Shown here piece after piece: positions 6,940 to 30,194 of a stretch of DNA of 39,604 bases. The stretch's first letter is position 1. The number at the start of each line of letters is the position of its first letter. Source of the stretch: Burkholderiales bacterium (lineage in GTDB: Bacteria; Pseudomonadota; Gammaproteobacteria; Burkholderiales; UBA11063); the NCBI GenBank assembly GCA_019748155.1, contig JAIEPY010000113.1, forward strand, positions 1 to 39,604, written 5' to 3'. Made by a program: the position numbers and the translations under genes. The notes beneath the pieces were generated by a model. The model ran no database searches. It saw nothing but the letters and a program-made list of their open reading frames with translations, and was not told where the DNA came from.

Positions 6940-7664
6940 TAAAATGCCTTCATTTGATATGAACCATCTGCTTGCGGAATACCGGTCATTGTCATAAATT
7001 GCAGTAATTTCTCTTTTTTATCCGGCTGAACTTTAGAGTTTAAGACTAAGCTTTTAACACTACCACTACCGGATACATTAATAACTGAATCTGAATTACT
7101 GCTTATAGTTATTCCCATCGAAGATAAATCAAAATTAACATTATAAGACCCAATTGGATTAACCGGAGACATACCAGAGCCTACGTCATCTAGTTTAACC
7201 ACAATAGTTCCTTGCATTTTTTTTCCTGCCAAAAGCTTATCAGCTGTGACATGAACATTTCCAGAAAGATTTAAACTATTTAAATTACCCAAAAATGGTG
7301 ACAATTGGTCCAAAGATAGTGATAAGTTAACCTTTGATAGCTCTAAACCATTTTTTGTAAGATCTAAATTAGCAATTGTTTGGCTCGATGAACTCAAATT
7401 GATATTAATAAATTTACTGATTCCCAGTTTTATTTTCCAATTAACCATCATTAATGGTATTGCACTCTTACCGCTGGCATCCTCACCAATCAGTAACGCC
7501 CGCCCGCTCCAAAAGCTGCCTCGTTCATTAATGATATCCAACCTGTTTTGTGAATAATGATGAATAATCGTACCCATTAACCACGCAGGCATATTTATAA
7601 CCATGCTTGACATAAAGCTAACTACAAATAAACCAATTAAAGAAAATTTATGCCATTTTTTCAT
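6939..7664 (-). CDS. gspN: type II secretion system protein GspN
   Basis: Accessory inner-membrane component of the type II secretion system. One N-terminal membrane anchor (residues about 7-30) is followed by a periplasmic beta-rich domain. The region RGSFWSGRALLIG matches the conserved GspN segment that follows the anchor. 241 residues, within family range. Start and stop overlap its neighbours by one base on each side (gspM before, rlmB after). GspN is absent from some type II systems, and its role is poorly defined. The call rests on weak overall similarity plus position directly after gspM. Confidence 0.82.
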   Translation of the reverse strand: MKKWHKFSLIGLFVVSFMSSMVINMPAWLMGTIIHHYSQNRLDIINERGSFWSGRALLIGEDASGKSAIPLMMVNWKIKLGISKFININLSSSSQTIANLDLTKNGLELSKVNLSLSLDQLSPFLGNLNSLNLSGNVHVTADKLLAGKKMQGTIVVKLDDVGSGMSPVNPIGSYNVNFDLSSMGITISSNSDSVINVSGSGSVKSLVLNSKVQPDKKEKLLQFMTMTGIPQADGSYQMKAF

Positions 7665-8197
7665 TATTGTTTAATCCAAAAAGTCGCGTTAAAAGACACA
7701 AAGCCAGTTCTGGTTTGACGCACAATATGTACTTGCGAAGGAAATATCCCATAACTACGCCGAAATTGTTCCATTAGCGCCATTACTTGAGTAAACTCAG
7801 CATTCGGCACATTAACAGTCATTTGTCCATCTTGAATTAAAATGTCCGGATCTTTAATCTGTAATACCTGTGAAACGTCACCCTTAACTTGTTCTAAATT
7901 AGCTTGATTAAAGCTATTAGCCTCAATTTTATTAAGTGACTTATAGGTATTTGCAGCTTGTTTGGAATAAATTGAAAATTTAAATAAGTTATTTACATGC
8001 TGCGATAAATTACGATTAAAGTTAATGAGTCCGCTTATCATCATAAACAGCAATAAAGCAGTAACAAATATCCCCATAACACCAACCAACTGCTGCTCAC
8101 GAGGTTGCAGTTGCAGCCATTTTATCTTGAGTAACTCAAGCTTAGGACCAATTAAATCCTTAAGTCGTTCAATCTGCTTACTTAACTTTGCGTTCAT
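7664..8197 (-). CDS. gspM: type II secretion system protein GspM
   Basis: Bitopic inner-membrane protein that pairs with GspL in the assembly platform. A basic cytoplasmic N-terminus containing LQPREQQLVGVMG, the family hallmark, precedes a single hydrophobic segment (about residues 36-58) and a periplasmic ferredoxin-like domain. 177 residues is normal. The start overlaps the end of gspL by 20 bases, typical of tightly coupled gsp operons. Confidence 0.88.
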   Translation of the reverse strand: MNAKLSKQIERLKDLIGPKLELLKIKWLQLQPREQQLVGVMGIFVTALLLFMMISGLINFNRNLSQHVNNLFKFSIYSKQAANTYKSLNKIEANSFNQANLEQVKGDVSQVLQIKDPDILIQDGQMTVNVPNAEFTQVMALMEQFRRSYGIFPSQVHIVRQTRTGFVSFNATFWIKQ

Positions 8198-9494
8198 CTA
8201 AATTATCCATTCTGGAAATAATCTGTAAATTAATTACCCACGCAGCATCCTGCATAACCGCTGCATTAGTAGTACTGGAACCACTGCTATCAGCTAAAGT
8301 GCCACCACCATTATTAGTCTGGCTACTAGTAGTATTTTGGCTAGCTTGATACGTTTTATAATCATAAATATCAGCACTAATTCGCTTAGTTGCCAAGATT
8401 ATTTGATCATTAGGAAAACTAGATGGATCAAACTGACTATTTAAAAATATAGTTAGTTGACTACCAGAATATTGTATCCCAGCAATCATACTGCTATTAA
8501 CATCCGGCATCGTTCGCAAAAACGTGTCAAACAAACTTACCATATCACTGGCTGCATACGCCCCTTTAGTGTGTGCCAAAGCAGTTAATTTATCATCTAC
8601 CTGCGCAAGCAATTGTGGGCTAAACGATGCGCTAGTGATTATCCCTTTCAAGTCATCACTTAACTGCGATTGCCAGCGAGAACGCTCAATTAGCATAAAG
8701 CCCAAATTTAATAGCCAATAAATTAAAAAAATTATTGCAAAACCACCCAAATAGCGACCAAGTTTCAAAACACTAGACAAAGTCTCTGATTGCAATTTAA
8801 TATTAAAACGTTTGCTTTTTTCATTATAAAAATTCCAATTGCTAACCCCGTATTGAATATCATGTTGTAGTTTACAATTTAGTTTATATTTAGCATTAAT
8901 TTCTTCTGCAACCGTTTCATCGTCTGTATAAAGTGTAATTGAGGTTTCTTCATAATTACTCAACATTTGCTCTAGTACTGCGGGAATAGGTTTTTGATCA
9001 TCTAATAAATAGTACTCATATTGCGAGGTTCTAACAAACTTGTTATTGCCAATAAGATATACAGCCCAAAGATCATCATGCTCGAGAGGAACACTATATG
9101 GAAACGGTTGAATAAAGCGTACTTTTTTTATTTGCTCACTTAAGAACTCTAATAAGTTCGTGTGAAAAAGTCGGTTAACAATCGCGACATATGCAATGCC
9201 ATCATTTAGGCGTAACAAAATCGGTTTGCACTGTTCAATTTCTTCTGCCAAACTATCCTCAACCAGACTCAACAGAAAGTCATCATTTATCTTGCGATCA
9301 CTAATGGCTCCAAGTTCAACTTTAATAATAGTCGCAAGTGTTGGAGCAAGATAAATTTCGACATTCTCAAATTCAAATTGCAAAATATCTGCAACTTTTC
9401 CTTCACCACTATCCTGGATATCATTTTGCTCAACAGTTTGCCAGCTAGCGGATAGTAGATCGTCATTATGAATAAATAAGCGTAAATTTGTCAT
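8178..9494 (-). CDS. gspL: type II secretion system protein GspL
   Basis: Assembly-platform protein linking the GspE ATPase in the cytoplasm to GspM and the pseudopilus. The actin-like cytoplasmic domain covers about residues 1-235. One membrane segment follows (LGGFAIIFLIYWLLNLGFMLI), then a periplasmic domain. 438 residues. A Ser/Thr/Asn/Gly-rich stretch interrupts the periplasmic domain near residues 385-415 and looks like a flexible insert. The ATG overlaps the gspK stop as ATGA. GspE itself is not in this window, so the partner ATPase must be encoded elsewhere. Confidence 0.86.
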   Translation of the reverse strand: MTNLRLFIHNDDLLSASWQTVEQNDIQDSGEGKVADILQFEFENVEIYLAPTLATIIKVELGAISDRKINDDFLLSLVEDSLAEEIEQCKPILLRLNDGIAYVAIVNRLFHTNLLEFLSEQIKKVRFIQPFPYSVPLEHDDLWAVYLIGNNKFVRTSQYEYYLLDDQKPIPAVLEQMLSNYEETSITLYTDDETVAEEINAKYKLNCKLQHDIQYGVSNWNFYNEKSKRFNIKLQSETLSSVLKLGRYLGGFAIIFLIYWLLNLGFMLIERSRWQSQLSDDLKGIITSASFSPQLLAQVDDKLTALAHTKGAYAASDMVSLFDTFLRTMPDVNSSMIAGIQYSGSQLTIFLNSQFDPSSFPNDQIILATKRISADIYDYKTYQASQNTTSSQTNNGGGTLADSSGSSTTNAAVMQDAAWVINLQIISRMDNLDERKVK

Positions 9495-10522
9495 TCAGGA
9501 TGTTGCCATAAAATTTGTGGCCATTGACCACTACGGTTTTGTCGATAAACAAATCCTACCCAGCGAAATTGATCATTCTGATCATCTACAATCGCATGAA
9601 TAGTAAAATAACTTGAGCTTACTCCAAGCCCACCAATATTTAAAATTGGACCATTATTATTTGGAGTATTACTACTACTGGTATTTACTCCATTGGTAGT
9701 TAAAAATGTCGTAATATCCTGTGTCGTTTTAAAAGGTTGAGAATTACGATAACTGATCATTCTCTGGGCTACATTTAAAGGTATCCCACCTTTTGCAGCA
9801 ATAACTTCGGCAGTTGCAGTATTAACATTAACTACTGAGCCAAAACCTGTTGGAACAGGAAGTGCAGCTTGTTTATTATTTTGAATAGCACTTTCCATAC
9901 TCTCAGCAGTCAAGCCATACCCATTTACCGGAATTGCCGTTATGTATTGCACTAATTTTTGATTAATCTCAGCTGTCATACCTTTTACCAATATAAGCTC
10001 AGATAAGTCAACTAACGGTCTGCCAGCTGGGCGATATGCTGGTTTTCCTCGAATATATTGGGGCATTATATCACCTTGAAACTGGGGTGCTGCCATATAG
10101 TAAGCAATATTATATGCTAAACTTTGTGGTAAATTAAGATATCCAAGCAATGCTGTAAATTGATTTAAAACATTAGGGTTTACTTGACCACTAGCGACCA
10201 AATCATTAATGTTAAATTTACTCTGCTCATCTTGCAGATAACCGCTCATATACATCTCATCCATAAGCAAAGTTTTTGGTAAACCTTTTGCCCACACATC
10301 ATTAAGCGTGTCCGTACTTGAGGTTGCACCGCTGGTTGCTAAAACCGCGCGACTAAAATCCATCGCACTATAGGCAATGGTAGTAGCCTGTTCAATCAGC
10401 TGACGATTCTCTAAACGCTTAATCATTCTAAAATTAGTCACTGTTAAATTAGCAACTATTGCCATCACAATAAACACAATTACCAACACGGTTACTAGAG
10501 CAGCGCCTTGATTACGTCTCAT
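9491..10522 (-). CDS. gspK: type II secretion minor pseudopilin GspK
   Basis: Minor pseudopilin thought to cap the pseudopilus tip with GspI and GspJ. The class III leader MRRNQG is followed by AALVTVLVIVFIVMAIVANL, the hydrophobic N-helix. As usual for GspK it lacks the Glu5 of other pseudopilins. The chosen ATG at 10522 shares one base with the gspJ stop (TAATG). A TTG four codons earlier (10534) is possible but not needed. About 343 residues, the large size typical of GspK. It contains a helix-hairpin-helix-like region with VNVNTATAEVI. Confidence 0.93.
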   Translation of the reverse strand: MRRNQGAALVTVLVIVFIVMAIVANLTVTNFRMIKRLENRQLIEQATTIAYSAMDFSRAVLATSGATSSTDTLNDVWAKGLPKTLLMDEMYMSGYLQDEQSKFNINDLVASGQVNPNVLNQFTALLGYLNLPQSLAYNIAYYMAAPQFQGDIMPQYIRGKPAYRPAGRPLVDLSELILVKGMTAEINQKLVQYITAIPVNGYGLTAESMESAIQNNKQAALPVPTGFGSVVNVNTATAEVIAAKGGIPLNVAQRMISYRNSQPFKTTQDITTFLTTNGVNTSSSNTPNNNGPILNIGGLGVSSSYFTIHAIVDDQNDQFRWVGFVYRQNRSGQWPQILWQHPE

Positions 10523-11148
10523 TATAGTGCCCAACTCCGCTCTATTTTCTCACCTGTTTTAAGCTGAAAGGTAAATTTAATACCTGTTGGCAATACAGTT
10601 GGATCACCTCCAACCGGAGGCCAGCTATCACGCCATTGATTATCTGGATAAAGGTACACAACTTCAAATAATTGTACATTCCCAATCAATAAATCTATCA
10701 CTGGCTGGGTGCTTAAAACTCTATTTAATGCTGGCCAGGTTACTAAATACAAACTACCATTATAAAACCGATAGCCGACCCGTTTTGGTGGTGAAGTTCC
10801 ATACACCTGATCACCAACAAAACCACTAAGCGTTAGCTCTAGCTGAGAGTCATACATTCCTTTAAGTTTAGGACTTCCCAAAACTGCTGGCAAAATATTA
10901 CCATCTTGATCTCTAGCTACCAGTGGTATAACACGATTCCAACTTCCACCGAAATTAGACATTAGTAAAGATAGATCACCCCATTTGGTTTGAGCAGCCC
11001 CAGCTACCTCTTTAGTTGTTACCAAACTTGTTATAATTCGATACGACACTACAGATATAAACGCAAAAATAATAACTGCAACCATTAACTCAATTAAGGT
11101 AAAACCAAATTGTTGCCGATACTTGGAGGGTAAATTAGTATTGTGCAA
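10522..11148 (-). CDS. gspJ: type II secretion minor pseudopilin GspJ
   Basis: Minor pseudopilin of the tip complex. The prepilin-peptidase site is RQQFG/FTLIELMVAV, with Glu5 present and a hydrophobic helix after it. 208 residues, with the GspJ pattern of VGYRFYNGSLYLVTWP and VQLFEVVYLYPDNQWRDSWPP in the C-terminal domain. No ATG is available before the leader, so the start is a TTG at 11148, overlapping the end of gspI by 14 bases. Translation therefore probably depends on coupling to gspI. Confidence 0.92.
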   Translation of the reverse strand: MHNTNLPSKYRQQFGFTLIELMVAVIIFAFISVVSYRIITSLVTTKEVAGAAQTKWGDLSLLMSNFGGSWNRVIPLVARDQDGNILPAVLGSPKLKGMYDSQLELTLSGFVGDQVYGTSPPKRVGYRFYNGSLYLVTWPALNRVLSTQPVIDLLIGNVQLFEVVYLYPDNQWRDSWPPVGGDPTVLPTGIKFTFQLKTGEKIERSWAL

Positions 11149-11503
11149 TGAAATTCACCGTCTTATAAATCATATGATCTGGGGTAGACTTTTCACTGAT
11201 AGTAATCTCAATTCGTCTAAAATATGGGTTGGGTGTCTGCAAAACAGTTTCGGTAACATTGAAGTCAACACCAGCTGAACTAAGCTTTTTCTTGACTATT
11301 CCCAAATCTGGATATTGATTATTAAGCAAGTATTGATTATATTCATTCTCGGCAACCCAAGTAGCTACTTCACGTACAAAGCTATCATGAACATCACTGA
11401 TAATCAAACCAATTGCTCTGGAAGCTGAGGCTAAGACTACTGCGACAATAAACAGTGCCACCAGACATTCAATCAGAGTAAATCCATTTTGCTGTTTCTT
11501 CAA
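11135..11503 (-). CDS. gspI: type II secretion minor pseudopilin GspI
   Basis: Minor pseudopilin that nucleates the tip complex. The leader and cleavage site are MKKQQNG/FTLIECLVALFIVAVV with Glu5. 122 residues, typical for GspI. The C-terminal domain has WVAENEYNQYLL, matching the conserved W-A-N region of the family. The start is a TTG placed directly after the gspH stop (TAATTG, no gap), with an AAGGT ribosome-binding sequence inside the end of gspH. Confidence 0.92.
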   Translation of the reverse strand: MKKQQNGFTLIECLVALFIVAVVLASASRAIGLIISDVHDSFVREVATWVAENEYNQYLLNNQYPDLGIVKKKLSSAGVDFNVTETVLQTPNPYFRRIEITISEKSTPDHMIYKTVNFIAQY

Positions 11504-11971
11504 TTAGTTAGCTACCTTAAACCGTCCAGATAGGTCACTATCAATCCATGCAGAGAACTCTCCATTAGTAACTTCTATTGAAATACCGCCATTATCACCA
11601 CTAGGAAGAAACCTAATTGGCTGCTTATCTTTTAATGGTACACCGTTTATGTTTACCCGCATTATTTTAAAACCACTTGGCCACCCCCACGATATCAAGC
11701 GACGCAGTTGCAATTCAGACCACTCACCATCACGGTATTTTTTACAACTAAGTGAGGTTGTGTCAATATCACAAGAAATCACACTACTTGTAAAAATAGC
11801 CTCATCCGATAAAATTGACATTGTGCTTGACAATTTTTCTACGCCAGACATAAAACGTGAATAATTAGGTGCCCCCACATTTAAGGTAACTACTGCTGAC
11901 ATTACTGCAATTATCACAATTACAATAATCATTTCAATTAGGGTAAAACCTTTGTGGTAGATTGCTTTCAT
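11504..11971 (-). CDS. gspH: type II secretion minor pseudopilin GspH
   Basis: Minor pseudopilin that links the tip complex to the GspG shaft. The leader and N-helix are MKAIYHKG/FTLIEMIIVIVIIAVMSAVV. 155 residues, ATG start. The position between gspG and gspI and the length fit GspH rather than another pseudopilin, but the C-terminal domain of this family is poorly conserved. It contains two cysteines close together (near residues 63 and 71) that could form a disulfide. Confidence 0.87.
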   Translation of the reverse strand: MKAIYHKGFTLIEMIIVIVIIAVMSAVVTLNVGAPNYSRFMSGVEKLSSTMSILSDEAIFTSSVISCDIDTTSLSCKKYRDGEWSELQLRRLISWGWPSGFKIMRVNINGVPLKDKQPIRFLPSGDNGGISIEVTNGEFSAWIDSDLSGRFKVAN

Positions 11972-11994
11972 TTAAATACTGCAGAGCAAAACAA

Positions 11995-12019
11995 CACGAG
12001 TTGATAAAATCAACTCGTG
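11995..12019 (-). terminator. intercistronic hairpin after gspG
   Basis: A perfect 10-bp inverted repeat, CACGAGTTGA / TCAACTCGTG with a 5-base loop, lies 31 bases past the gspG stop and before gspH. On the minus strand it is followed by TTGTTTTGC, a weak T tract. It could act as a partial terminator or a 3' stabiliser, giving more gspG mRNA than minor-pseudopilin mRNA. Confidence 0.6.
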
Positions 12020-12050
12020 GTAAAGATAAGAGTAGTTAGTCAAAGTAATT

Positions 12051-12476
12051 TTATTGCCAGCTACCGATCACAGATGGACCAGTATCTCCACCTGATGTCG
12101 GACCATCTGGGCCATAAGTATAAACATCAATCTCACTGTGCTTACCTGGATTTAAATATTGATAATCATTACCCCAAGGATCTTTAGGTAATTTATCTAA
12201 GTATCCACCAGATTTGAAATTATTAGGAATTGGGGCAATGGATGGTTTATTTACCAAAGCGTCTAATCCCTGTTGGGTGGTTGGATAACGCATATTATCT
12301 AGTTTATATAATTTTAAGGAGTTCGCAATCGCTGAAATATCCGCTTGAGCCGCAACTTTCCGTGCATCATCTGTACGACCAAGTACCCGTGGCACCACTA
12401 AAGCCGCCATAATACCTAAAATCACCAATACCACCATGATTTCAATTAACGTGAAACCAGATCTTTTTCTTTGCAT
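12051..12476 (-). CDS. gspG: type II secretion major pseudopilin GspG
   Basis: Main subunit of the periplasmic pseudopilus that pushes folded substrates through the secretin. The leader is MQRKRSG/FTLIEIMVVLVILGIMAALV with Glu5. The C-terminal domain has LDNMRYPTTQQGLDALV and DPWGNDYQYLNPG, GspG hallmarks that include the calcium-binding loop. I chose the ATG at 12476, giving 141 residues, because GAGGTG sits about 7 bases upstream. ATG at 12494 and the longer frame to 12572 lack a ribosome-binding site. First gsp gene of the block, 96 bases after nadB. Confidence 0.95.
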   Translation of the reverse strand: MQRKRSGFTLIEIMVVLVILGIMAALVVPRVLGRTDDARKVAAQADISAIANSLKLYKLDNMRYPTTQQGLDALVNKPSIAPIPNNFKSGGYLDKLPKDPWGNDYQYLNPGKHSEIDVYTYGPDGPTSGGDTGPSVIGSWQ

Positions 12477-12572
12477 TTTCTGCACCTCATTCATTATTGT
12501 AATTATATAAAACTTACCTAGCAAGTAAAATATTAAATGCCTATAGCGTTGAATTTTACCATAATCCCCCAA

Positions 12573-14135
12573 TTAGCGCAACAACGTATCATATATTTCG
12601 CTACCACAATCTGGGTAATCTAAACTAAAATGCAAACCGCGACTCTCCTTGCGCATTTTTGCGGACTTAATTATCAACTCTGCCACTAAAACCAAGTTGC
12701 GTAATTCAATTAAATCAGCGCTTATTTTAAAGTTTGCGTAGTACTCATTAATTTCATCACGAAGTAAACTAACACGCCGCAACGCGCGCTCAAGGCGTTT
12801 ATTACTCCGTACAATTCCTACGTAGTCCCACATCAGACGCCTTAACTCATCCCAATTATGTGATATAACAATTTCGTCGTCGGCATCACTAACTTGTGAT
12901 TCATCCCATGGCATTAAAGTTGCTGATGATTCACGCTTATCAGCCAAAATGTTCTTAACCAATGCTTCACCAACTACCAAGCACTCTAACAAAGAATTAC
13001 TCGCCAAGCGATTTGCTCCATGCAAACCAGTGCACGCACATTCACCAACCGCATAAAGACCATGAATTGAAGTCTTACCAGATAAATCAGTTATAACACC
13101 CCCACAGGTATAATGTGCAGCTGGCACTACCGGAATCGGTTCACGACTAATATCCAAGCCAAGGGATAAACATTTAGCATAGATATTCGGAAAGTGTTCT
13201 AAAATAAAATCTTTTGGCTTATGTGAAATATCCAGGCAAACATGATCAGCTCCATATTTCTTCATTTCAAAATCAATTGCCCGTGCAACAATGTCTCGTG
13301 GAGCCAATTCCATTCTAGCATCATGTTCCGCCATAAAGCGCGTACCATCAGGTAAAGTAAGTATACCACCTTCACCACGGACGGCTTCTGAAATCAAAAA
13401 AGACTTAGCCTTTTCATGATAAAGACAAGTTGGATGAAACTGAATGAATTCCATGTTGGCAACAGCACAACCAGCACGAAATGCCATCGCGATACCATCA
13501 CCTGTAGCAACATCAGGGTTTGTCGTATACAGATACGCCTTACCAGCACCACCTGTTGCTAATACAATATTTGGTGCACTGAAAGTTTTAACCTGATTAG
13601 TTTTTATGTCAAAGGCATATAATCCGACGCATTCCCGAATATCACTAGCGCTTAACTCTTCAGTAATTAAGTCTACTGCAATAAAATGCTCAAAGACGGT
13701 TATTGAATCGTGTTCTAAAACTAGCGCAAGCAAAGCCCGAACAATTGCCGCACCGGTCGCATCAGCAACATGTAACACCCGTCTAGCACTATGTCCACCC
13801 TCACGAGTTAAATGAATGTCATTTTTTTCGCGAGTAAAATTTACACCCGCGTTCATCAACCATTCAATTGCAGCAGGTGCGTTTTCAACAATAAATTTCA
13901 CTGCCTCTGAATTACATAGTCCGGCTCCAGCTACTAAAGTATCGCGAATATGGCTTTCAAAAGAATCATTTTGATTAATGACCGCGGCAATTCCGCCTTG
14001 AGCATAAAAAGAATTACACTCACTTAACTCACGTTTACTAATCAAAGCAACTTTTTCACCAGCTTCTGCAAGCCGCAAAGCTACTGATAAACCCGCTAAA
14101 CCACTACCTAACACGATAGCAGAAAATTTATCCAT
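12573..14135 (-). CDS. nadB: L-aspartate oxidase
   Basis: FAD enzyme that oxidises L-aspartate to iminoaspartate for de novo NAD synthesis. The dinucleotide motif GSGLAGLSVALRLAEAG is at residues about 9-25. SFYAQGGIAAV is the flavin-contact segment. EFIQFHPTCLY, the active-site Arg region APRDIVARAID and the C-terminal GLHGANRLASNSLLECLV are all in place. 520 residues, the usual length. It starts one base after the dapB stop. The partner nadA is not in this window. Confidence 0.95.
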   Translation of the reverse strand: MDKFSAIVLGSGLAGLSVALRLAEAGEKVALISKRELSECNSFYAQGGIAAVINQNDSFESHIRDTLVAGAGLCNSEAVKFIVENAPAAIEWLMNAGVNFTREKNDIHLTREGGHSARRVLHVADATGAAIVRALLALVLEHDSITVFEHFIAVDLITEELSASDIRECVGLYAFDIKTNQVKTFSAPNIVLATGGAGKAYLYTTNPDVATGDGIAMAFRAGCAVANMEFIQFHPTCLYHEKAKSFLISEAVRGEGGILTLPDGTRFMAEHDARMELAPRDIVARAIDFEMKKYGADHVCLDISHKPKDFILEHFPNIYAKCLSLGLDISREPIPVVPAAHYTCGGVITDLSGKTSIHGLYAVGECACTGLHGANRLASNSLLECLVVGEALVKNILADKRESSATLMPWDESQVSDADDEIVISHNWDELRRLMWDYVGIVRSNKRLERALRRVSLLRDEINEYYANFKISADLIELRNLVLVAELIIKSAKMRKESRGLHFSLDYPDCGSEIYDTLLR

Positions 14136-21990: not shown

Positions 21991-22116
21991 TGATTACCTT
22001 ACAATCCTACATAGGGCTTTAACCTAACAATAAAAATAATAACTAGGGAAAAACTGACACAACCGTTAAAAGTGGTCTATATAACTTGGTAGGCTATGTT
22101 ACAATAATGTTTCTTA

Positions 22117-22201
22117 AACACCGGGGGTGCTGCTGTAAAAAGTGGCTGAGAAATACCCTTTAAACCTGATCAGGCTAATACCTGCGCAAGGGAGAGTGCT
22201 C
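22117..22201 (+). ncRNA. TPP riboswitch aptamer (THI box)
   Basis: The conserved elements appear in order: GGGGGTGC at the 5' arm, GGCTGAGA, ATACCCTTT, ACCTGATC, GGCTAATACCTGCGCAAGGGAG and a closing GTG. These are the pyrimidine- and pyrophosphate-sensing helices of the TPP aptamer. It lies upstream of a thiamine-precursor transporter operon, as expected for feedback control by TPP. Confidence 0.95.
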
Positions 22202-22256
22202 TTCAGTCTAATCAGACTATCCAAGCTCTGCTCCCTTATAAGTTTTTCTTATAAGG
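22188..22256 (+). promoter_or_regulatory. TPP riboswitch expression platform that hides the ribosome-binding site
   Basis: CCTTATAAG (22234-22242) and CTTATAAGG (22248-22256) form a 9-bp hairpin that buries the AAGGA ribosome-binding site 6 bases before the GTG start at 22264. The competing pairing is AAGGGAG (22188-22194, part of the aptamer) with CTCCCTT (22231-22237). So bound TPP should free the hairpin to close (off), and unbound aptamer should open it (on). There is no T run after the hairpin beyond its loop, so control looks translational rather than by termination. Confidence 0.7.
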
Positions 22257-22263
22257 AACATAA

Positions 22264-22827
22264 GTGACTAAACACCTTACACTCAGCGAAACTGTATTTT
22301 TAACTGTAATGGCAACTGCGATGGGCGTTGCATGGTGGGCATATTCAATTATCTACGATATAATTTCACCACTATTAAAAACCTTTGCGCTTAGTGGTTT
22401 ACTCGAAGGCGTTTGGCAAATGGGTGGGATCTTCTTTGCCTATATTATTCGAAAACCCGGTAGCGCATTTTTAGGGGCAGTAATTGCAGCCGCTGTTGAA
22501 GGGTTAATTTCACAATGGGGATTTTCAGCGTTACTCTCTGGGATTTGTCAGGGTTTGCCGGTGGAGCTACTTTTTTTGGCAACTGCTTATAAAGTTTGGA
22601 ATAAGTTTAATTGTGCACTGGCAGGTACGCTTTCGGCATTGGGTGGCTATAGCATCACCTACTTCTGGTACGGCTACGGCTCATTTAGTTTGAATTTCAA
22701 CCTGATTAATCTTGGCTGTAACCTAGTATCAGGCGCTATCTTTGGCGGTTTATTTGCGCGTTATCTTGCTAATCGCCTTGCTGCTTCAGGTGTGTTAAAT
22801 CAATTTCGTATTTGTGCCGACAAATAA
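22264..22827 (+). CDS. ykoE: ECF transporter S component, YkoE-like (thiamine precursor)
   Basis: Substrate-binding membrane subunit of an energy-coupling-factor importer. Several hydrophobic helices in 187 residues. WWAYSIIYDIISPLLK near the N-terminus and EGVWQMGGIFFAYIIRKPGSAFLG match YkoE, the S component linked to hydroxymethylpyrimidine/thiamine uptake. The GTG start follows AAGGA. Placed behind a TPP riboswitch and followed by its ATPase and T component in the order known for ykoEDC. The exact ligand (thiamine or its pyrimidine moiety) is inferred. Confidence 0.87.
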   Translation: MTKHLTLSETVFLTVMATAMGVAWWAYSIIYDIISPLLKTFALSGLLEGVWQMGGIFFAYIIRKPGSAFLGAVIAAAVEGLISQWGFSALLSGICQGLPVELLFLATAYKVWNKFNCALAGTLSALGGYSITYFWYGYGSFSLNFNLINLGCNLVSGAIFGGLFARYLANRLAASGVLNQFRICADK

Positions 22828-22829
22828 CC

Positions 22830-24185
22830 ATGTCAATACCAATTTATCAAGTTGAAAATTTTGGTTTTAATTATCCGCAAAGCCACTACAATCTAAAACT
22901 TAATGGCAAATTTACGATCAACCAAGGTGAATGCATTTTAATTCAAGGAGCTTCTGGCAGCGGTAAATCCACATTACTCGCGGCACTCAAGGGGCTAATC
23001 CCCCATCTAATAAATGGCAAGTTAAGCGGCAAAATTATCTTTAATCACCAAGACATTACAACTTTTAATGAAAAACAATTACTCGGCATTGGCTACCTAC
23101 AACAAAATCCAGATAGCCAACTAATTTGCAGCGATGTCTATAGCGAGCTGGCATTTGGCCTCGAAAATCAAGGTTTTACAGCAAGTGAGATCGAAAGTAA
23201 GATCACTAGGATAGCTCAAGATTTTAAGCTCGATAATCTACTAACCTACCAGCTTAATCAACTATCTGGTGGTGAAAAACAAAAAGTAAATTTACTGGCT
23301 ATTTTGCTTATGCAGCCGCAGGTTTTACTCCTCGATGAACCAACTGCATTTCTTGATCCTGAATCAGCACATGAGATTATTATGATGCTCCAACAGTATA
23401 TTCAGCACTCGACTGTGGTTATAGTTGAACACAATCACTATTATTTGCGAAACATCATTAGTCGTGTCATTAACATCAGTAATGACGGACAAATTAGCGA
23501 ACAAAGTTCTGAACAATCCATCTGGAATCAAACTTTACCAAAATTAAAATCAGCTGGTGATTCTAAGCAGACTAAGCAAGCACTAATAGAACTGCGTCAA
23601 CTTAATTTTGCGTACTCCAATAATCGAAAATTATTAAACAATCTCAATTTAACTATAAATTCTGGTGAAATAATTGCAATTACTGGTAAAAATGGTAGCG
23701 GTAAATCAAGCTTACTTAAATTAATCGCAGGAATTATCAAAACACCGGGGCAAATATTTTGGCAACAGCAAGATATTGCTACAATCAACTATCAAAGATT
23801 ATGGTCATATCTTACCCTACTCTGGCAAAATCCCGAAGCGCATTTTATCTATAATAGCGTAGATGAAGAATTAGAACAGAATAATAAAATATTAGCTCTA
23901 TTTAACTTGGTTCCACAACGTGCGCAGAATCCATACAGTTTGTCTGAAGGACAAAAACGCAGATTATCATTAGCAATTGCGCTTAACCTACACCCGCAGC
24001 TAATTTTACTGGATGAACCAACCTTTGGGCAAGATTATGAGCATAAATTACAATTAGCACAATTAATTATGCAACTAAAAAATCAAGGGATGAGTTTTGT
24101 CATGGTAAGTCACGATCAGGATTTTATTGATGCCATTGCCGACCGCCGTTATCATCTGGCTGGTGGAGAGTTAAGCTTATGCTAA
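22830..24185 (+). CDS. ykoD: ECF transporter ATPase, two fused ABC domains, YkoD-like
   Basis: Energy-coupling ATPase with two nucleotide-binding domains in one chain. Domain 1: Walker A GASGSGKST, signature LSGGEKQK, Walker B VLLLDEPTAFLDPE. Domain 2: Walker A GKNGSGKSS, signature LSEGQKRR, Walker B LILLDEPTFG. The second signature has Glu for the usual first Gly, and the second domain ends its Walker B in FGQD. 451 residues from the ATG at 22830, two bases after the ykoE stop. An earlier in-frame TTG at 22812 is less likely. Confidence 0.92.
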   Translation: MSIPIYQVENFGFNYPQSHYNLKLNGKFTINQGECILIQGASGSGKSTLLAALKGLIPHLINGKLSGKIIFNHQDITTFNEKQLLGIGYLQQNPDSQLICSDVYSELAFGLENQGFTASEIESKITRIAQDFKLDNLLTYQLNQLSGGEKQKVNLLAILLMQPQVLLLDEPTAFLDPESAHEIIMMLQQYIQHSTVVIVEHNHYYLRNIISRVINISNDGQISEQSSEQSIWNQTLPKLKSAGDSKQTKQALIELRQLNFAYSNNRKLLNNLNLTINSGEIIAITGKNGSGKSSLLKLIAGIIKTPGQIFWQQQDIATINYQRLWSYLTLLWQNPEAHFIYNSVDEELEQNNKILALFNLVPQRAQNPYSLSEGQKRRLSLAIALNLHPQLILLDEPTFGQDYEHKLQLAQLIMQLKNQGMSFVMVSHDQDFIDAIADRRYHLAGGELSLC

Positions 24186-24883
24186 GCAATAAATTCCATC
24201 CGCTTAATTTTATTGTCTTGCCTTTGCTGGGAATAATCGCAATTTTCTGTGCCACTCACATTATACAGTATGGCTTAATCTTTGCCATAATGTTGCTCAA
24301 CTTTAGCTTGCTATGTAAAAAGCCACAGTTTAAGATTATGTTATGGTTCAACTTAAGCCTTATTCCTGCATTATTAGCATTATTTATTAGTAGCTATTTT
24401 TTTGCCTCAGATAATGAGCTTAGTAATTATGCCTTAAGCAGTCAGGCACAAAGCAAACTCTGGTTTTCTGCCACACTGGCTATGAGACTATATCTGCTAT
24501 CACTAGTCTCAGTTAGCTTTATGCTCCATCTTCCACAAGAACAACTTATTTTGGATTTAATTCAGCGTAAAATAGTACGGGTAAAAATTGGTTACTCATT
24601 TTTAGCTGTATTCAATGCTTTTGCATTCATGAAGCAGGAATTTACGCGCATTCAGATTGCATACAAAATGCGTTTTCGTAAAAAATGGCTATCACCACAA
24701 ATTTTGATGCCACTTCTGGTTGCCGCAGCTCGTTATGCCCACCATTTAAGTATCAGCATGTACACCCGTGGAATTAATCAAGAGCGTAGTTATCATCAGC
24801 CAAAAATTAATTTTACTTATTACGATTTAGCAATAGTATTGCTTAATATCACAATTTTAAGTGCAGTTATTTTTGCGAAATAA
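24179..24883 (+). CDS. ykoC: ECF transporter T component, YkoC-like
   Basis: Transmembrane scaffold (EcfT/CbiQ family) that couples the ATPases to the S component. N-terminal hydrophobic helices are followed by the cytoplasmic coupling region. SMYTRGINQERSYH near residue 197 corresponds to the conserved Ala/Ser-x-x-x-Arg-Gly coupling motif. 234 residues. The start overlaps ykoD by 7 bases. Its 3' end overlaps the convergent replication-initiator gene by 27 bases. Confidence 0.9.
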   Translation: MLSNKFHPLNFIVLPLLGIIAIFCATHIIQYGLIFAIMLLNFSLLCKKPQFKIMLWFNLSLIPALLALFISSYFFASDNELSNYALSSQAQSKLWFSATLAMRLYLLSLVSVSFMLHLPQEQLILDLIQRKIVRVKIGYSFLAVFNAFAFMKQEFTRIQIAYKMRFRKKWLSPQILMPLLVAAARYAHHLSISMYTRGINQERSYHQPKINFTYYDLAIVLLNITILSAVIFAK

Positions 24884-25699
24884 AAACTCGATAAACATAA
24901 CTTTACGATTCACTTTGTGCTCAACTAAATCAATACAGATATCAGACTTTAGATTGATCTCATGCAATGCAATATTTAAAACCTTGCGCTTGAAATTACT
25001 ATAAATCTCATAAGTACCGCTCTCAATTCCCAACATCTCTTTTATTTCTGTCAAATTAAATTTCAGGCTAGAGGTATTTTTATCATAGTTGGTAATAATC
25101 ATATCATAAATCAAGTTTGAATAACTTGAGGTAAAGCTTGCCGAATATTTCCAGCGCCCGCCGATATACTGCTGCTTAATATATAGAATAAAAGGAATTA
25201 AGCGATAACTTACTTCAATAATAATCTGCTTATTATTTCGGTTATAACTGTATGCCGAAATAAAAGTTGTTGCTTCAAAGTCTTCAATCTCACCATTTTG
25301 AGCCAGACGCTGCGTGCTCAATGTCCTATTACAAAAATCTTCCAAGAGATTAAGCAAATCAAGTTTACTAATATTAGGAATAAATCTGGTTAAAACTGGA
25401 AAACTACTTTGAATTACTTTATTTTGCTTATTGATAAAGCTATTTTGATCACTACTTTTAATGTGCTTCATAATAAATGCCATTAAAGTAATATGTGCCG
25501 ATGTCTGGAGGTATTTATAGCTAGATGTTGTCACCCCATCTGGATGAGTAACTACCCGAATTGCCGCAATCATGTAATAAAACTCGTAAAAAAACATTAA
25601 GAAAAAATCCGCAAACATCGAATACTTATTGTATAATCTTGGTATCGGATACTTATTCACCATCATTGGTATTAGATGTTTAACTTCCTGAGCTAACAC
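24857..25699 (-). CDS. plasmid-type replication initiator, Rep_3 family
   Basis: 280 residues, GTG start at 25699 with no clear ribosome-binding site; ATGs at 25666 or 25663 are alternatives. The C-terminal winged-helix half has SSYSNLIYDMIITNYDK, FNLTEIKEMLGI, YSNFKRKVLNIALHEIN and a following strand, the usual order for the second DNA-binding domain of RepB/RepE-type initiators (Rep_3). Such proteins bind iterons at plasmid origins. Here the gene lies among chromosomal genes with no partition or mobilisation genes beside it. It could be a relic of an integrated plasmid or a protein adapted to another DNA-binding role. The function as an initiator is inferred. Confidence 0.78.
   Translation of the reverse strand: MLAQEVKHLIPMMVNKYPIPRLYNKYSMFADFFLMFFYEFYYMIAAIRVVTHPDGVTTSSYKYLQTSAHITLMAFIMKHIKSSDQNSFINKQNKVIQSSFPVLTRFIPNISKLDLLNLLEDFCNRTLSTQRLAQNGEIEDFEATTFISAYSYNRNNKQIIIEVSYRLIPFILYIKQQYIGGRWKYSASFTSSYSNLIYDMIITNYDKNTSSLKFNLTEIKEMLGIESGTYEIYSNFKRKVLNIALHEINLKSDICIDLVEHKVNRKVMFIEFLFRKNNCT
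25638..25652. repeat. copy 1 of a 15-base repeat, inside the rep gene
   Basis: CTTGGTATCGGATAC, identical to 25834-25848, lies within the first codons of the Rep_3 gene. A weaker relative, TTGGTATTAGAT, follows at 25667-25678, 28 bases on. Together they resemble iterons or operator copies. Confidence 0.55.
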
Positions 25700-25833
25700 C
25701 TAAAAATACACAACAAGATGATTATAGCATAAGTACTACATCAGCACCACTAGGATTTGATAATTCATCAGTATACGGCTGTTGTATTTCGATAATTACA
25801 AACACAATAATAGTGAGTATCCGTTAGACAGAC

Positions 25834-25849
25834 CTTGGTATCGGATACC
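25834..25849. promoter_or_regulatory. copy 2 of the repeat, a palindromic operator or iteron candidate
   Basis: CTTGGTATCGGATACC contains the 13-base palindrome GGTATC-G-GATACC. A partial inverted copy GTATCCG is at 25818-25824. The site lies between the divergent Rep_3 and dehydrogenase/KAS III fusion genes, about 135 bases from the former and 103 from the latter. A dimeric regulator, perhaps Rep itself, could bind here. Confidence 0.5.
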
Positions 25850-25951
25850 TTTTATTGTACTGTGCGCCACAAGCACTAATCATCCAGTAGAAATAATGCC
25901 TGACTGATTCGTGTAAAACCAACAACCAAATTTTAAGAGAGATTGAATTGA

Positions 25952-28900
25952 ATGTCTAAGCAAACTTTATTGAATCTATACAGCTCAATGATTGCTTCGC
26001 GCGAATCAGATATTGTAGAATCAGAATTAGTCAACAGTGGCGAGGCTAATTTCTTGGCATCCAGTAAAGGACATGAGGGCAGCGTAATCGTAGCTCCTTT
26101 TTTACAGCCATCAGATTGGTTACATTGTCATTATCGCGATAAAGCGTTGATGATTGCGCGCGGCATTAGCAATAAAATGTTCTTCTTAAGCGCACTGGCT
26201 AAAGCTGAGTCTCATTCCGCTGGACGACAAATGGTTTCCCACATGAGCGCCCCAGAGTTAAACTTAATGAGTCTAGTTGGACCAGTTGGTAATAACGCCT
26301 TGCAAGCAGCTGGTGTTGCCATGGCAGTTAAAGATCAAGAAGATCACCCAATTGTGTATTGCTCAGTTGGTGATGGAACTTCACAACAAGGCGAAGTTTT
26401 AGAAGCAATTGCTGAAGCACATCGTAATAATTTACCTGTCTTATTTTTTATTCACAATAACAATCTGGCAATCTCGACCCGCACCGCTGGTAAAACGTTT
26501 TTCTCATTAGCTGATGGTTCTGTACCGCAAAGCTTTTATAATATTCCAATTAGCTATATTGATGGTAGTAAACCATTAGAGCAATATAGTGTCGTTGAAA
26601 ATATAATTGCAACAATGCGCCAAGATCGCAAACCTCAAATCATTGTTTTCAATGTTGAACGCTTAGATAATCACTCCAATGCCGATGACCAAAAACTCTA
26701 TCGCGATGATGCTGAATTAGATGCATCTTGGCTATCTGATCCACTAAAAACCAGCTATGACTATTTATTAAGCCAAGGTTTTAGCAGCTCAGAAATTGAA
26801 GCTATCAAACAGCAAACTATCGCAGAAGTTCGTGCCTCGGTTGATGAAGCCCGCGCGGGAGCTGAGCCTTTGGCTACTCACGCCGCAGAAGTTGAATTAC
26901 CTAAAGAATTACAAGCTACAGCAGCTGAATATCGTGGAGATTTTAATAGTGAAGAACGCATGACGATGCTGGAAGCTATGCGCCGCGTGTTCCACCACCA
27001 GCTAGCCAATAATCCCGATGTAATCATCATGGGTGAAGATGTCGAGGATGGCAAAGGTGATGTATTTGGAATCACCCGTGGCTTATCAACCCAATATCCG
27101 GGACGAGTATTAAATAGTGCACTAAGTGAATCAACAATTGCTGGTTTGGCAACTGGTTTATCTTTAACAGGCAAACATCCAGTAGCATTTATCCAATTTG
27201 CAGATTTTTTACCATTAGCCTACAATCAAATCTTCTCTGAAATGGCAACCATGTATTGGCGTACCAACGGTGGCTGGCAATGTCCGGTAATCGTTTTTGC
27301 CGCGTGTGGTGCATATCGTCCGGGACTTGGTCCATTTCACTCACAAACCAATGAAGCGACTTTTGCCCATATCCCTGGTTTAGATGTCTATATGCCGGCA
27401 AATGCAGCCGATGCAGCGGGGATGCTTAATGCAGCCTTTAAATCACGCCGTCCAAGCTTATTTTTATACCCTAAAAAATTATTGAACAATGGAAGTGTTG
27501 AAGATACCACTTCTTATGATGTAAGCAAACAGCTAGTACCTGTGGGTAAAGCACGGGTAGTTAAGGCTGGTGCAGATATCACTCTGGTTGGCTGGGGAAA
27601 TACTGTTTCATTGTGCCAGCAAGCAGCTGAGAGCTTAGAAACTATCGGAATAGCTGCAGAGGTGATCGATTTAAGAACTATCAAACCTTATGATGTAGCA
27701 ACTATCGTTAGTTCTGCAAATAAAACCCGCCATTTGGTAGTTGTCCATGAAGATAATCTAACCTGTGGATTGGGTGGTGATATTATGGCAAGCGTTGCTG
27801 AGTTAGCAACTAATCCAGTTAAAATGCGTAGAATTGCCCGGGCAGATACTTACACGCCGTGTAATTTTGCTAATCAGCTGGAAGTACTACCATCATTTGA
27901 AAAAATCCTGACAGCCTCATGTGATTTACTAAATCTAAATCTGGAATGGGAACAAGAATCACAACAAGACGCATCATTATTCACCGTAGATGTAATTGGT
28001 GCCAGTCCATCAGATGAAACGGTATTAATCAATGTTATTCACGTTAATGTCGGTGACGAAGTTGAATCAGGTCAGGTATTAGTGGATATTGAAGCTAGTA
28101 AATCTGCGGGTGAAATTTTGTCGCCATGTAATGGGATTGTTGAAGAAATTTGTGTTGAATTAGATGATAAAGCTATGGTTGGTAATCCATTGGTAAAAAT
28201 TCGTCTGCCACAAGGTGTAGTGAAAGCCGCGAGTAGCAAAACGCGTAAGCCGATTTTAAGCCGCAAAGAATCTACTACAGGTACTCAAACGAATTCTCCA
28301 GCAGCAATTACACTCGCAGGTAAAGTAGGTCTTAATACGCCACACTTCAAAGCTGGCTCACGAATAGTTAAAAATGAAGAAATTTTACCGCAATTCCCTG
28401 ATTTTACCAATGAGGATATTATCCAAAGAACTGGTATTCATCAACGCTGCTGGCTAAAAGATGGCGAAAGTGTGGTTGATCTGGCGGTTGAATCTAGCGT
28501 TGCCGCACTGAAAGCTCAGAATCTGAATCTCCGTGATATTGATTTGCTTATCTGCGCAACTTGTAGCCCCGAACAATATCAATCGCCATCATTATCGTGC
28601 TTGGTCTTGCATCGCCTAGGTCAAATCTTTGGCACTAGCAATATTCCGGCATATGACCTCAATGCAGCCTGCAGCGGTTATATCTATGCACTTCAAGCAG
28701 CACAGGATTATTTAATTGCTCGACCAAATGCACGGGTACTACTAGTAACCGCTGAAGCACTATCGCAAAGAATACGCTCGGATGATTTCGAAACTGCATT
28801 CTTATTTGCTGATGGAGCTAGTGCAACTATCTTATGTGGAAATAATCACATTGATGAATGCGTTGCCGAACTTAAGCAAATTTATTTAGGCTCAGATCCT

Positions 28901-29284
28901 GAAGATGGCTCTATTTTAAACATACCAACTCGTCTGCAGGAAGGAATTACCATGCAAGGTAAGAAACTCTTTAGCGTGGCGGTAAAAACCATGTCAATGG
29001 CAATTCATAAATGCTGCCAGTTAGCTAATGTGGAAGTTGCTACAATTAACTTAGCGGTACCACATCAGGCCAATCAACGAATTTTAAGTGCGGTAGAAAG
29101 CCGTTTGAAATTGCCTGCCGGAATTATGTTTAGCAATATTGCTAATTATGGCAATACTTCGTCATGCACAATTCCAATAGCACTAAGCGAAGCTCTTGCT
29201 GAACAAAAGCATCAGAAAAATATCGCATTATGTGCTTTTGGTGGTGGCTTTACCGCCGGAGCGGCGTTACTGACGCTTCGTTAA
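25952..29284 (+). CDS. fused 2-oxoacid dehydrogenase E1alpha-E1beta, lipoyl domain and ketoacyl-ACP synthase III
   Basis: A 1110-residue protein with four modules. Residues 1-about 320: E1alpha with YRDKALMIARG and the TPP/Mg motif GDGTSQQGE (from 140) to HNNN (168-171). About 335-660: E1beta, with MGEDVEDGKGDVFG and a transketolase C-terminal part ending near RADTYTPCNFANQLE. About 676-752: lipoyl domain with the attachment Lys717 in DIEASKSAG. About 795-1110: FabH-type KAS III with complete Cys907 (AACSGY), His1038 (PHQAN) and Asn1068 (NYGNTSS). No E2 catalytic core (no HHxxxDG) and no E3. I infer that a 2-oxo acid is decarboxylated, carried as an acyl-lipoyl and handed to the KAS III cysteine to prime a chain. 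ATG after AAGAGAG. Substrate unknown. Confidence 0.9.
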   Translation: MSKQTLLNLYSSMIASRESDIVESELVNSGEANFLASSKGHEGSVIVAPFLQPSDWLHCHYRDKALMIARGISNKMFFLSALAKAESHSAGRQMVSHMSAPELNLMSLVGPVGNNALQAAGVAMAVKDQEDHPIVYCSVGDGTSQQGEVLEAIAEAHRNNLPVLFFIHNNNLAISTRTAGKTFFSLADGSVPQSFYNIPISYIDGSKPLEQYSVVENIIATMRQDRKPQIIVFNVERLDNHSNADDQKLYRDDAELDASWLSDPLKTSYDYLLSQGFSSSEIEAIKQQTIAEVRASVDEARAGAEPLATHAAEVELPKELQATAAEYRGDFNSEERMTMLEAMRRVFHHQLANNPDVIIMGEDVEDGKGDVFGITRGLSTQYPGRVLNSALSESTIAGLATGLSLTGKHPVAFIQFADFLPLAYNQIFSEMATMYWRTNGGWQCPVIVFAACGAYRPGLGPFHSQTNEATFAHIPGLDVYMPANAADAAGMLNAAFKSRRPSLFLYPKKLLNNGSVEDTTSYDVSKQLVPVGKARVVKAGADITLVGWGNTVSLCQQAAESLETIGIAAEVIDLRTIKPYDVATIVSSANKTRHLVVVHEDNLTCGLGGDIMASVAELATNPVKMRRIARADTYTPCNFANQLEVLPSFEKILTASCDLLNLNLEWEQESQQDASLFTVDVIGASPSDETVLINVIHVNVGDEVESGQVLVDIEASKSAGEILSPCNGIVEEICVELDDKAMVGNPLVKIRLPQGVVKAASSKTRKPILSRKESTTGTQTNSPAAITLAGKVGLNTPHFKAGSRIVKNEEILPQFPDFTNEDIIQRTGIHQRCWLKDGESVVDLAVESSVAALKAQNLNLRDIDLLICATCSPEQYQSPSLSCLVLHRLGQIFGTSNIPAYDLNAACSGYIYALQAAQDYLIARPNARVLLVTAEALSQRIRSDDFETAFLFADGASATILCGNNHIDECVAELKQIYLGSDPEDGSILNIPTRLQEGITMQGKKLFSVAVKTMSMAIHKCCQLANVEVATINLAVPHQANQRILSAVESRLKLPAGIMFSNIANYGNTSSCTIPIALSEALAEQKHQKNIALCAFGGGFTAGAALLTLR

Positions 29285-29289
29285 GACAT

Positions 29290-29322
29290 AAAAACCACCT
29301 GTTAAAAAATAGGTGGTTTTTT
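29290..29322. terminator. bidirectional terminator between the fusion gene and ttcA
   Basis: AAAACCACCT / AGGTGGTTTT with a loop of about 10 bases. A T run follows on the plus strand and another on the minus strand, serving the two convergent genes. It begins 6 bases after the fusion stop codon. Confidence 0.87.
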
Positions 29323-29336
29323 AAATTTTATAATAG

Positions 29337-30194
29337 TCAGACTAAATTAATTACGGCAGACTCAGTAAAACTTTCGCGATCAAAGGCAATATCACCATCA
29401 GCATTAGCTTCACCAGTACTTTGTAGATTAACAAAATCAAACTGTTTAGTATCCATCAAATGTGAAGGAACTACATTTTGCATAGCTCTAAACATGGTTT
29501 GAATCCGCCCAGGATATTTTTTTGACCAATCATTAAGCATCTCTTTAATTACCTGACGCTGCAAATTAGGCTGAGAGCCACATAAATTACATGGAATAAT
29601 CGGGAAATTTTTAACTTCAGCGTACTTAATTAAATCTTTTTCCGCACAGTATGCAAGTGGACGAATTACAATATTATTGCCATCATCACTCACTAGTTTA
29701 GCTGGCATTCCTTTTAGCTTGCCACCATAAAACATATTTAGAAATAAAGTTTCTAAGATATCATCACGATGATGCCCTAAGGCAATTTTAGTTGCACCAA
29801 TTTCTTTGGCTACCCGATATAAAATTCCGCGACGGAGCCTCGAACATAAACCACAAGTGGTTTTACCCTCTTCAATCACCCGTTTTACCGTCGAATAAGT
29901 ATCTTCTTCGATGATTTTATACTCTACTTCCAGCGATTTTAGGTATTGTGGCAGAATATGTTTAGGAAAGCCAGGTTGTCCCTGATCGAGATTAATTGCT
30001 ACAATCTTAAAATTAATTGGAGCTGATTTTTGCAGCCCAAGAAGAATATCCAACATACTATAGCTATCTTTACCACCAGATAAACAGACCATAACCGTGT
30101 CGCCATCTTCTATCATATTATAATCGCTAATTGCCTTGCCTACGTTGGCACGCAGCCGTTTGTGCAATTTATTATTTTCGTATTCATAATCCAT
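29337..30194 (-). CDS. ttcA: tRNA 2-thiocytidine(32) synthetase TtcA
   Basis: Iron-sulfur enzyme that thiolates cytidine 32 in certain tRNAs. The PP-loop ATP site is SGGKDS at residues 39-44. The CxxC pair is Cys114/Cys117 ([12 protein letters not shown]), and Cys205 in PCNLCGS would be the third cluster ligand. ALGHHRDD follows the usual pattern. 285 residues, ATG start. It stands alone, convergent to the fusion gene and divergent from glnA. Confidence 0.94.

Follow-up and report, generated by a model that had tools for sequence, protein, structure and literature searches.

A single-chain E1-lipoyl-ketosynthase fusion as a candidate CoA-bypassing primer enzyme for iso-fatty acid synthesis

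The locus described here raises the question of how a 2-oxo acid dehydrogenase could hand its acyl group to fatty acid synthesis without the usual E2 acyltransferase. A 39,604-nucleotide stretch from a Burkholderiales bacterium (assembly GCA_019748155.1, contig JAIEPY010000113.1, positions 1 to 39,604 of the forward strand; "the window" below) encodes, at 25952 to 29284 (+) from ATG to stop, a protein of 1110 amino acids that joins both halves of a dehydrogenase E1 component to a lipoyl domain and a FabH-type β-ketoacyl-acyl carrier protein synthase III (KAS III). The window's genus is very probably Aquella, and the host is a water bacterium. In the canonical branched-chain route, a Bkd complex makes acyl-coenzyme A (acyl-CoA), which is used by FabH, as described in PMC6461809. 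We postulate, with modest confidence, that the fusion is a self-contained primer enzyme for iso- and branched-chain fatty acid synthesis that bypasses CoA.

Domain order and catalytic residues of the fusion

A first-pass annotation had read E1α, E1β, lipoyl, and KAS III parts in one frame, and open reading frame (ORF) and Pfam analyses bear this out, with every feature on the + strand. The E1α domain (E1_dh, residues 12 to 306, E = 2.7e-38; 25985 to 26869) is followed by the E1β domain (Transket_pyr, 337 to 512, 2.3e-27, and Transketolase_C, 532 to 644, 2.1e-30; 26960 to 27883) and a single lipoyl domain (Biotin_lipoyl, 693 to 750, 2.6e-11; 28028 to 28201). A linker at residues 752 to 800 (28205 to 28351), in which model confidence drops below 50 at 755 to 764 and 773 to 788, leads to the KAS III domain (residues 803 to 1109; 28358 to 29278), matched by ACP_syn_III (901 to 964, 2.3e-16) and ACP_syn_III_C (1023 to 1108, 5.3e-24). 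Eleven Pfam families matched the chain at E ≤ 0.01, and neither the E2 core (2-oxoacid_dh) nor an E3-binding family was among them; the domain search likewise found no E3, as the annotation had stated, and Pfam found no acyl carrier protein (ACP) domain.

The catalytic positions had been numbered exactly. The thiamine pyrophosphate (TPP) motif is intact, running from GDG (residues 140 to 142; 26369 to 26377) to NN (169 to 170; 26456 to 26461). The E1α domain also has His241, in an HSNADD loop, and Glu393 and His463 of E1β show no variation across 24 aligned rows; we presume the roles of all three, that of His241 from E1 structures. Lys717, the predicted lipoylation site (28100 to 28102) in the hairpin EASKS, is invariant in all 24 aligned proteins. 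Cys907 (28670 to 28672), His1038 (29063 to 29065), and Asn1068 (29153 to 29155) align with Cys112, His244, and Asn274 of Escherichia coli FabH. This triad is kept in 27/27 fusion KAS III domains, a count that omits two pieces with no KAS motif (the first halves of L058 and L039), and it is nearly invariant in the 24-row alignment, where one row (L103, from genome G380) has no KAS III. With three E1 families and the GDG...NN motif at one end and a Cys-His-Asn triad on a FabH fold at the other, the fusion appears catalytically complete by residue content.

The KAS III part passed PRK09352 (263.1 bits, cut-off 249) and fell short of TIGR00747 (227.3 bits, cut-off 292.1). The AlphaFold model is weak (mean predicted local distance difference test score, 66.2, from 7 input sequences) and served only for matching this part to FabH structures, which it did among the best 50 of 1606 rows. 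BioZ structures, considered with a biotin-type role in mind, scored below the best FabHs.

We propose that the E1 half would bind TPP and decarboxylate a branched 2-oxo acid, mainly the leucine-derived 4-methyl-2-oxopentanoate, a substrate suggested by the iso-C15:0 discussed below, and that its intact residues would allow it to reductively acylate the lipoyl group attached, within this chain, at Lys717. The lipoyl arm, with linkers on both sides, could swing to the KAS III domain and pass the isovaleryl group directly to Cys907 without CoA, as the loss of the CoA adenine site would suggest. Decarboxylative condensation with malonyl-ACP, driven by His1038 and Asn1068, would yield 5-methyl-3-oxohexanoyl-ACP for elongation to iso-C15:0 by the ordinary type II system, and a free lipoamide dehydrogenase would reoxidize the dihydrolipoyl group. 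Substrate, lipoylation, direct transfer, and product are all predictions. In more general terms, we lean on balance toward a 2-oxo acid dehydrogenase that dispenses with both E2 and CoA and delivers the acyl group of its acyl-dihydrolipoyl directly to the cysteine of a ketosynthase within one polypeptide, so that oxidative decarboxylation is coupled to the making of a C-C bond. The E1-lipoyl part would then be a portable acyl donor that is paired with other acceptors in other lineages (in G176, a KAS accompanied by its own ACP gene; in G380, a chain that has no KAS).

The CoA site and the source of the iso-primer

When CoA is bound to FabH, its adenine is sandwiched by Trp32 and Arg151, Thr28 is adjacent, and the pantetheine contacts Arg36 and two Asn residues (PMC4606726, in which E. 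coli structures are superposed). The Trp and Arg of this clamp are retained in the divergent CoA-using enzyme PqsD and even in PqsC, according to PMC4807248. Thr28, Trp32, and Arg151 (FabH numbering) are replaced in 27/27 fusion KAS III domains and all kept in 23/23 ordinary FabHs, the window genome's own among them; the count of 23 omits two divergent KAS III sequences (L125 and L126), in which the second and third of these sites carry R and H. The Trp32 position holds Asp in 23 fusions, Glu in 3, and Gly in 1, the Arg151 position holds Phe in 25 and Pro in 2, and the Thr28 position is never Thr, so that the Trp32/Arg151 clamp of acyl-CoA-using FabH occurs in 0/27 fusions. These 27 rows are related sequences rather than independent events and span six lineages (the genus, G176, G098, G767, a Planctomycetota pair, and the pair L036/L037).

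Farther down the channel, 27/27 fusions retain Gly209 and Arg249, 26/27 retain Phe213 and Asn247, and 23/27 retain Arg36. Loss of the nucleotide end with a mostly retained pantetheine tunnel is what would be expected if the primer comes on a tethered lipoyl arm. The Phe87 site is Ser or Thr in 27/27 fusions and Phe in 23/23 ordinary FabHs; we take Phe87 to close the acyl pocket of E. coli FabH, and its replacement is compatible with a bulkier primer. The earlier proposal that the E2 and CoA steps are skipped, with the acyl group moving from lipoyl to the KAS III cysteine and condensing with malonyl-ACP, thus gains partial support from the conserved fusion, the intact residues, the adenine-site loss in 27/27 domains, and a separate E3. 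Because the residues lost are exactly those that touch the adenine, the CoA-bypass idea can be tested directly.

A different role for the KAS III domain would be that of a surrogate E2, a transacylase from lipoyl to CoA or ACP only, leaving the C-C bond to the housekeeping FabH, which the genome does encode in addition to the fusion. KAS III enzymes are presumably able to transacylate. ChlB3-type KAS III proteins act as acyltransferases (PMC9573744). We nevertheless regard this role as improbable: every fusion domain retains the His and Asn on which decarboxylative condensation depends, the CoA adenine site is lost, and it is the ordinary FabHs that keep Phe87.

What the fusion might prime is suggested by a published lipid profile. 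Iso-C15:0 is the largest fatty acid of Aquella oligotrophica P08T, at 36.2%, and straight-chain acids are made too (PMC6612550). We read the complete chromosome G016 (2,820,660 bp) as that of P08T. In it, E1_dh matches the fusion and just two further proteins, 940 and 618 amino acids long, read as SucA and Dxs; AceE is a separate gene, found in 11/11 of the good genus genomes (completeness at least 90%, contamination at most 5%). One of two E2 cores in G016 lies beside AceE and the other beside the 940-amino-acid E1, and two is presumably the number expected for pyruvate dehydrogenase (PDH) plus 2-oxoglutarate dehydrogenase. A family search found no POR_N in G016 (5 of the 23 genus genomes have one), and family models found no other E1α/E1β pair, third E2, or POR-type enzyme there. 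Across the genus, E2 cores never exceed two per genome (two in 10 of the 11 good genomes, one in G004). P08T needs an isovaleryl primer and no Bkd complex was found in G016; we therefore consider the fusion the best candidate source, on a correlation that comes from one characterized species.

The other parts that the mechanism calls for are encoded in trans. The need for a separate E3, anticipated in the first-pass annotation, is answered by a free-standing Lpd elsewhere in the genome (over the TIGR01350 cut-off in 21 of the 23 genus genomes). The lipoyl synthase LipA is over cut-off in 15/23, with matches in 18/23 and in all 11 good genomes. Genomes G006 (87% complete) and G017 (74%) have the fusion and LipA with no E2 core or Lpd over cut-off; we read this as missing sequence, the alternative being a fusion retained after loss of other lipoyl systems.

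Distribution, neighboring genes, and competing explanations

We searched 61 genomes of the order, comprising the source genome, 22 others of the genus, and 38 others, and found the fusion in 20/23 genus genomes, among them all 11 good ones and the 1.7-Mb G012. It lies in contig-end or gap-split pieces in G001, G020, and G021, and the genomes without it (G008, G013, and G019) are 52, 68, and 81% complete. No full-length match occurred in the 38 genomes outside the genus, where the best match (1.5e-66) covered residues 2 to 655. The class-level search of 369 genomes added two fusions, G176 (full length, 42% identity) and G098 (886 amino acids to a contig end, 45%), as well as, in G380, an E1α-E1β-lipoyl protein (51%) whose chain lacks KAS III, and 398 genomes at the phylum level added one more fusion, G767 (46%). 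A contig-collection scan found the fusion at 7 of 9 loci, three of them from the genus; the distant ones, at 42 to 52% identity, are L036 and L037 (labeled Akkermansia and Verrucomicrobia) and L038 and L039 (Planctomycetota). The survey proposed earlier thus finds the architecture recurring at 42 to 52% identity in Proteobacteria, Planctomycetota, and Verrucomicrobia. A chance fusion or assembly error was ruled out, the same chain recurring in many assemblies. Of the records that matched, none of 1104 from plasmids and none of 58 from phages held at least 80% of the fusion in one place, and none of 30 pattern stretches of viral contigs encoded a relative.

The E1β parts of G176, G098, and G380 are 56 to 58% identical to that of the window, compared with at most 41% for ordinary E1βs. 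In the E1β tree, 25 fusion-type sequences (G380 included) stand apart from 28 others across an internal branch with a length of 1.5 changes per site and support of 100/100. In the KAS III tree, 26 fusion domains form one group against 25 FabH/KAS III rows, also at 100/100, with G176 on a long branch and a bootstrap that had not settled. Since each part groups as one family, the parts have probably traveled jointly since an early fusion event.

One competing idea is that each half acts on its own, with free acyl-CoA as the usual substrate of the KAS III. The halves are separable in G380, but joint conservation of the fusion across phyla and the loss of the CoA adenine site make this idea very improbable.

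In the window, the fusion gene lies between a divergent gene for a plasmid-type Rep_3 initiator (24857 to 25699, −) and a convergent gene that we take to be ttcA-like. A Rep_3-like ORF of the same cluster adjoins the fusion on the other strand at six loci, the window and G016 included, and may be what is left of a plasmid that introduced the region. Neighbors were compared at 24 loci (20 from the genus and L036 to L039; G176, G098, G380, and G767 left out) using ORFs of at least 100 amino acids, and no neighbor cluster was common to the genus and the four distant loci. Within the genus, the fusion does not simply stand alone: five loci share a malic enzyme gene and six the Rep_3-like gene. In G004, an aminotransferase-family gene begins 11 bases 3′ of the fusion gene on the same strand, a possible fit to an amino acid-derived 2-oxo acid. 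In G176, the fusion gene shares 8 bases at its end with a gene for a 78-amino-acid ACP (L104, 2361 to 2597, −), a point in favor of the proposed primer enzyme. A crude search for ACP motifs at 27 loci (some of them overlapping; G767, G011, and G001 left out) gave one other hit, a 58-amino-acid ORF in L038 that lies 9 kb from the fusion and looks spurious.

In G380 (L103, region 7626 to 13174), the E1-lipoyl gene stands beside SET-domain, isoleucine-dioxygenase-like, MetX-like, and ATP-grasp-like genes, the dioxygenase and MetX matches both below cut-off, and its acyl-lipoyl module may serve another acceptor. These oxygenase-, MetX-, and ATP-grasp-like neighbors would suit a starter for a specialized metabolite or signal (an α-pyrone, resorcinol, or ketone) rather than bulk membrane fatty acids, as would Photorhabdus BkdABC, which feeds both iso-fatty acids and natural products (PMC4578411, PMC3838401, and PMC4901931). 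We think such a product unlikely: neighbors within the genus vary and resemble ordinary metabolism, all 11 good genomes carry the gene, even at 1.7 Mb, and the strain read as P08T needs a source of iso-primer. Of the products first suggested, a primer module for unusual fatty acids is favored here in the form of ordinary membrane iso-fatty acids; polyketide-like products or signals are less likely, given the presence of the gene in 11/11 good genomes, the fact that no biosynthetic cluster was seen around it in the genus, and the 36% iso-C15:0 of the strain read as P08T, for which no other branched-chain dehydrogenase was found.

Several observations weigh against a CoA-bypassing source of iso-primer. 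The top-scoring NCBIfam E1 models for the fusion are pyruvate E1 models, every one under cut-off. In 5 of the 20 genus loci (L045, L049, L052, L053, and L054, from G009, G010, G012, G014, and G017), the fusion gene is immediately preceded, in the same orientation and with a gap of −14 to 33 bases, by a malic enzyme/phosphotransacetylase gene, identified by Pfam on the L045 copy and by similarity cluster for the other four. Malic enzyme yields pyruvate and NADPH, and this neighbor could mark either pyruvate as the substrate or a general tie to fatty acid synthesis, for which it could presumably supply the NADPH equally well. An alternative hypothesis is that the fusion is a pyruvate-fed acetoacetyl-ACP synthase using the same mechanism, which would provide an acetyl primer for straight chains or accept several 2-oxo acids. 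Straight-chain acids are indeed among the products of P08T (PMC6612550). This alternative is also unlikely in our estimation, if worth keeping in view: it would be redundant, since AceE is present in 11/11 good genomes and ordinary FabHs exist, the Phe87 gate is replaced, the iso-C15:0 is left unexplained, and the malic enzyme gene is not adjacent to the fusion in the window or G016.

The docking surface adds further points on the same side. The Lys214 site is basic in 23/23 ordinary FabHs and in 1/27 fusions, and position 256 is Lys or Arg in 18/23 and 1/27, respectively; position 257 is Lys or Arg in 23/27 fusions, and Arg249 is kept in all. We take Lys214, Arg249, Lys256, and Lys257 to form the basic patch on FabH that docks malonyl-ACP, so the predominant loss at 214 and 256 suggests that docking would differ in detail. 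The Asn210 site is Lys or Arg in 25/27 fusions and Asn in just 6/23 ordinary FabHs; the residue is named beside pantetheine, as Asn209, in PMC4606726. G176 diverges further (Phe213 to Ala and Asn247 to Ser), and loss of the adenine clamp is no proof that CoA goes unused. The frame of L039 is broken between the E1 and lipoyl parts, which were read as two pieces, and in G380 the E1-lipoyl half occurs without a KAS III on its chain. The equation of G016 with P08T is presumptive, the apparent lack of another enzyme is judged from family models, and AceE acting on branched 2-oxo acids, or isovalerate uptake, may supply the primer. The mechanism as a whole is proposed from sequence and a published lipid.

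Other features of the window were recorded. A terminator-like site with a 14-bp stem (29290 to 29321, +), directly 3′ of the fusion gene, is statistically weak (2 sites in 25500 to 29700 versus 3.3 expected in shuffles), and a 90-amino-acid ORF overlapping the 3′ end (29230 to 29502, +) is without a Pfam match and probably spurious. A TPP riboswitch (RF00059, 63.2 bits; 22113 to 22211, +) stands directly 5′ of a gene set at 22264 to 24883 (PF09819, an ABC ATPase, and a small membrane protein) that is likely a thiamine transporter, one gene away from the TPP enzyme; we presume it to be YkoEDC-like. ORFs at 7664 to 12572 (−) resemble, from their translations, a type II secretion pseudopilin/assembly operon.

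Relation to known systems

We found no description of this fusion in the titles and abstract openings listed for open-licence PMC articles, which is no proof of absence. The supply of iso-primers to fatty acid synthesis is already known; the new element would be direct transfer from lipoyl to ketosynthase without CoA. If true, this would be a new route for loading a ketosynthase, in which Bkd and FabH are merged in one chain and CoA is dropped. It would account for the iso-C15:0 of a betaproteobacterium in which no Bkd complex is detected, and it would offer engineers a one-gene primer module.

Relative to the E1α2β2 of PDH and branched-chain 2-oxo acid dehydrogenases, the fusion shares all E1 domains and catalytic motifs but combines the two halves with a lipoyl domain in a single polypeptide, on an E1β branch 1.5 changes per site from the 28 ordinary sequences. 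Its KAS III domain is like FabH (PRK09352 and TIGR00747) in sequence, fold, and Cys-His-Asn triad and differs at Thr28, Trp32, Phe87, Arg151, and Lys214. The Bacillus-type Bkd complex with FabH performs the same overall task, turning a branched 2-oxo acid into a branched primer, but does so with separate E1α, E1β, E2 (BkdB), and E3 proteins and a FabH that takes acyl-CoA, whereas the fusion has no E2 core, carries E1 and KAS III on one chain, and has lost the adenine site. The nearest functional precedent, likened by description only, is Photorhabdus BkdABC, an ACP-containing Bkd system, with the ACP in BkdB, that is described as forming a 5-methyl-3-oxohexanoyl thioester and as needed for iso-fatty acids. 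That system comprises three genes, and its BkdB, which is or contains an ACP, requires the phosphopantetheinyl transferase NgrA; the fusion, in contrast, is a single chain with a lipoyl domain in place of any ACP domain.

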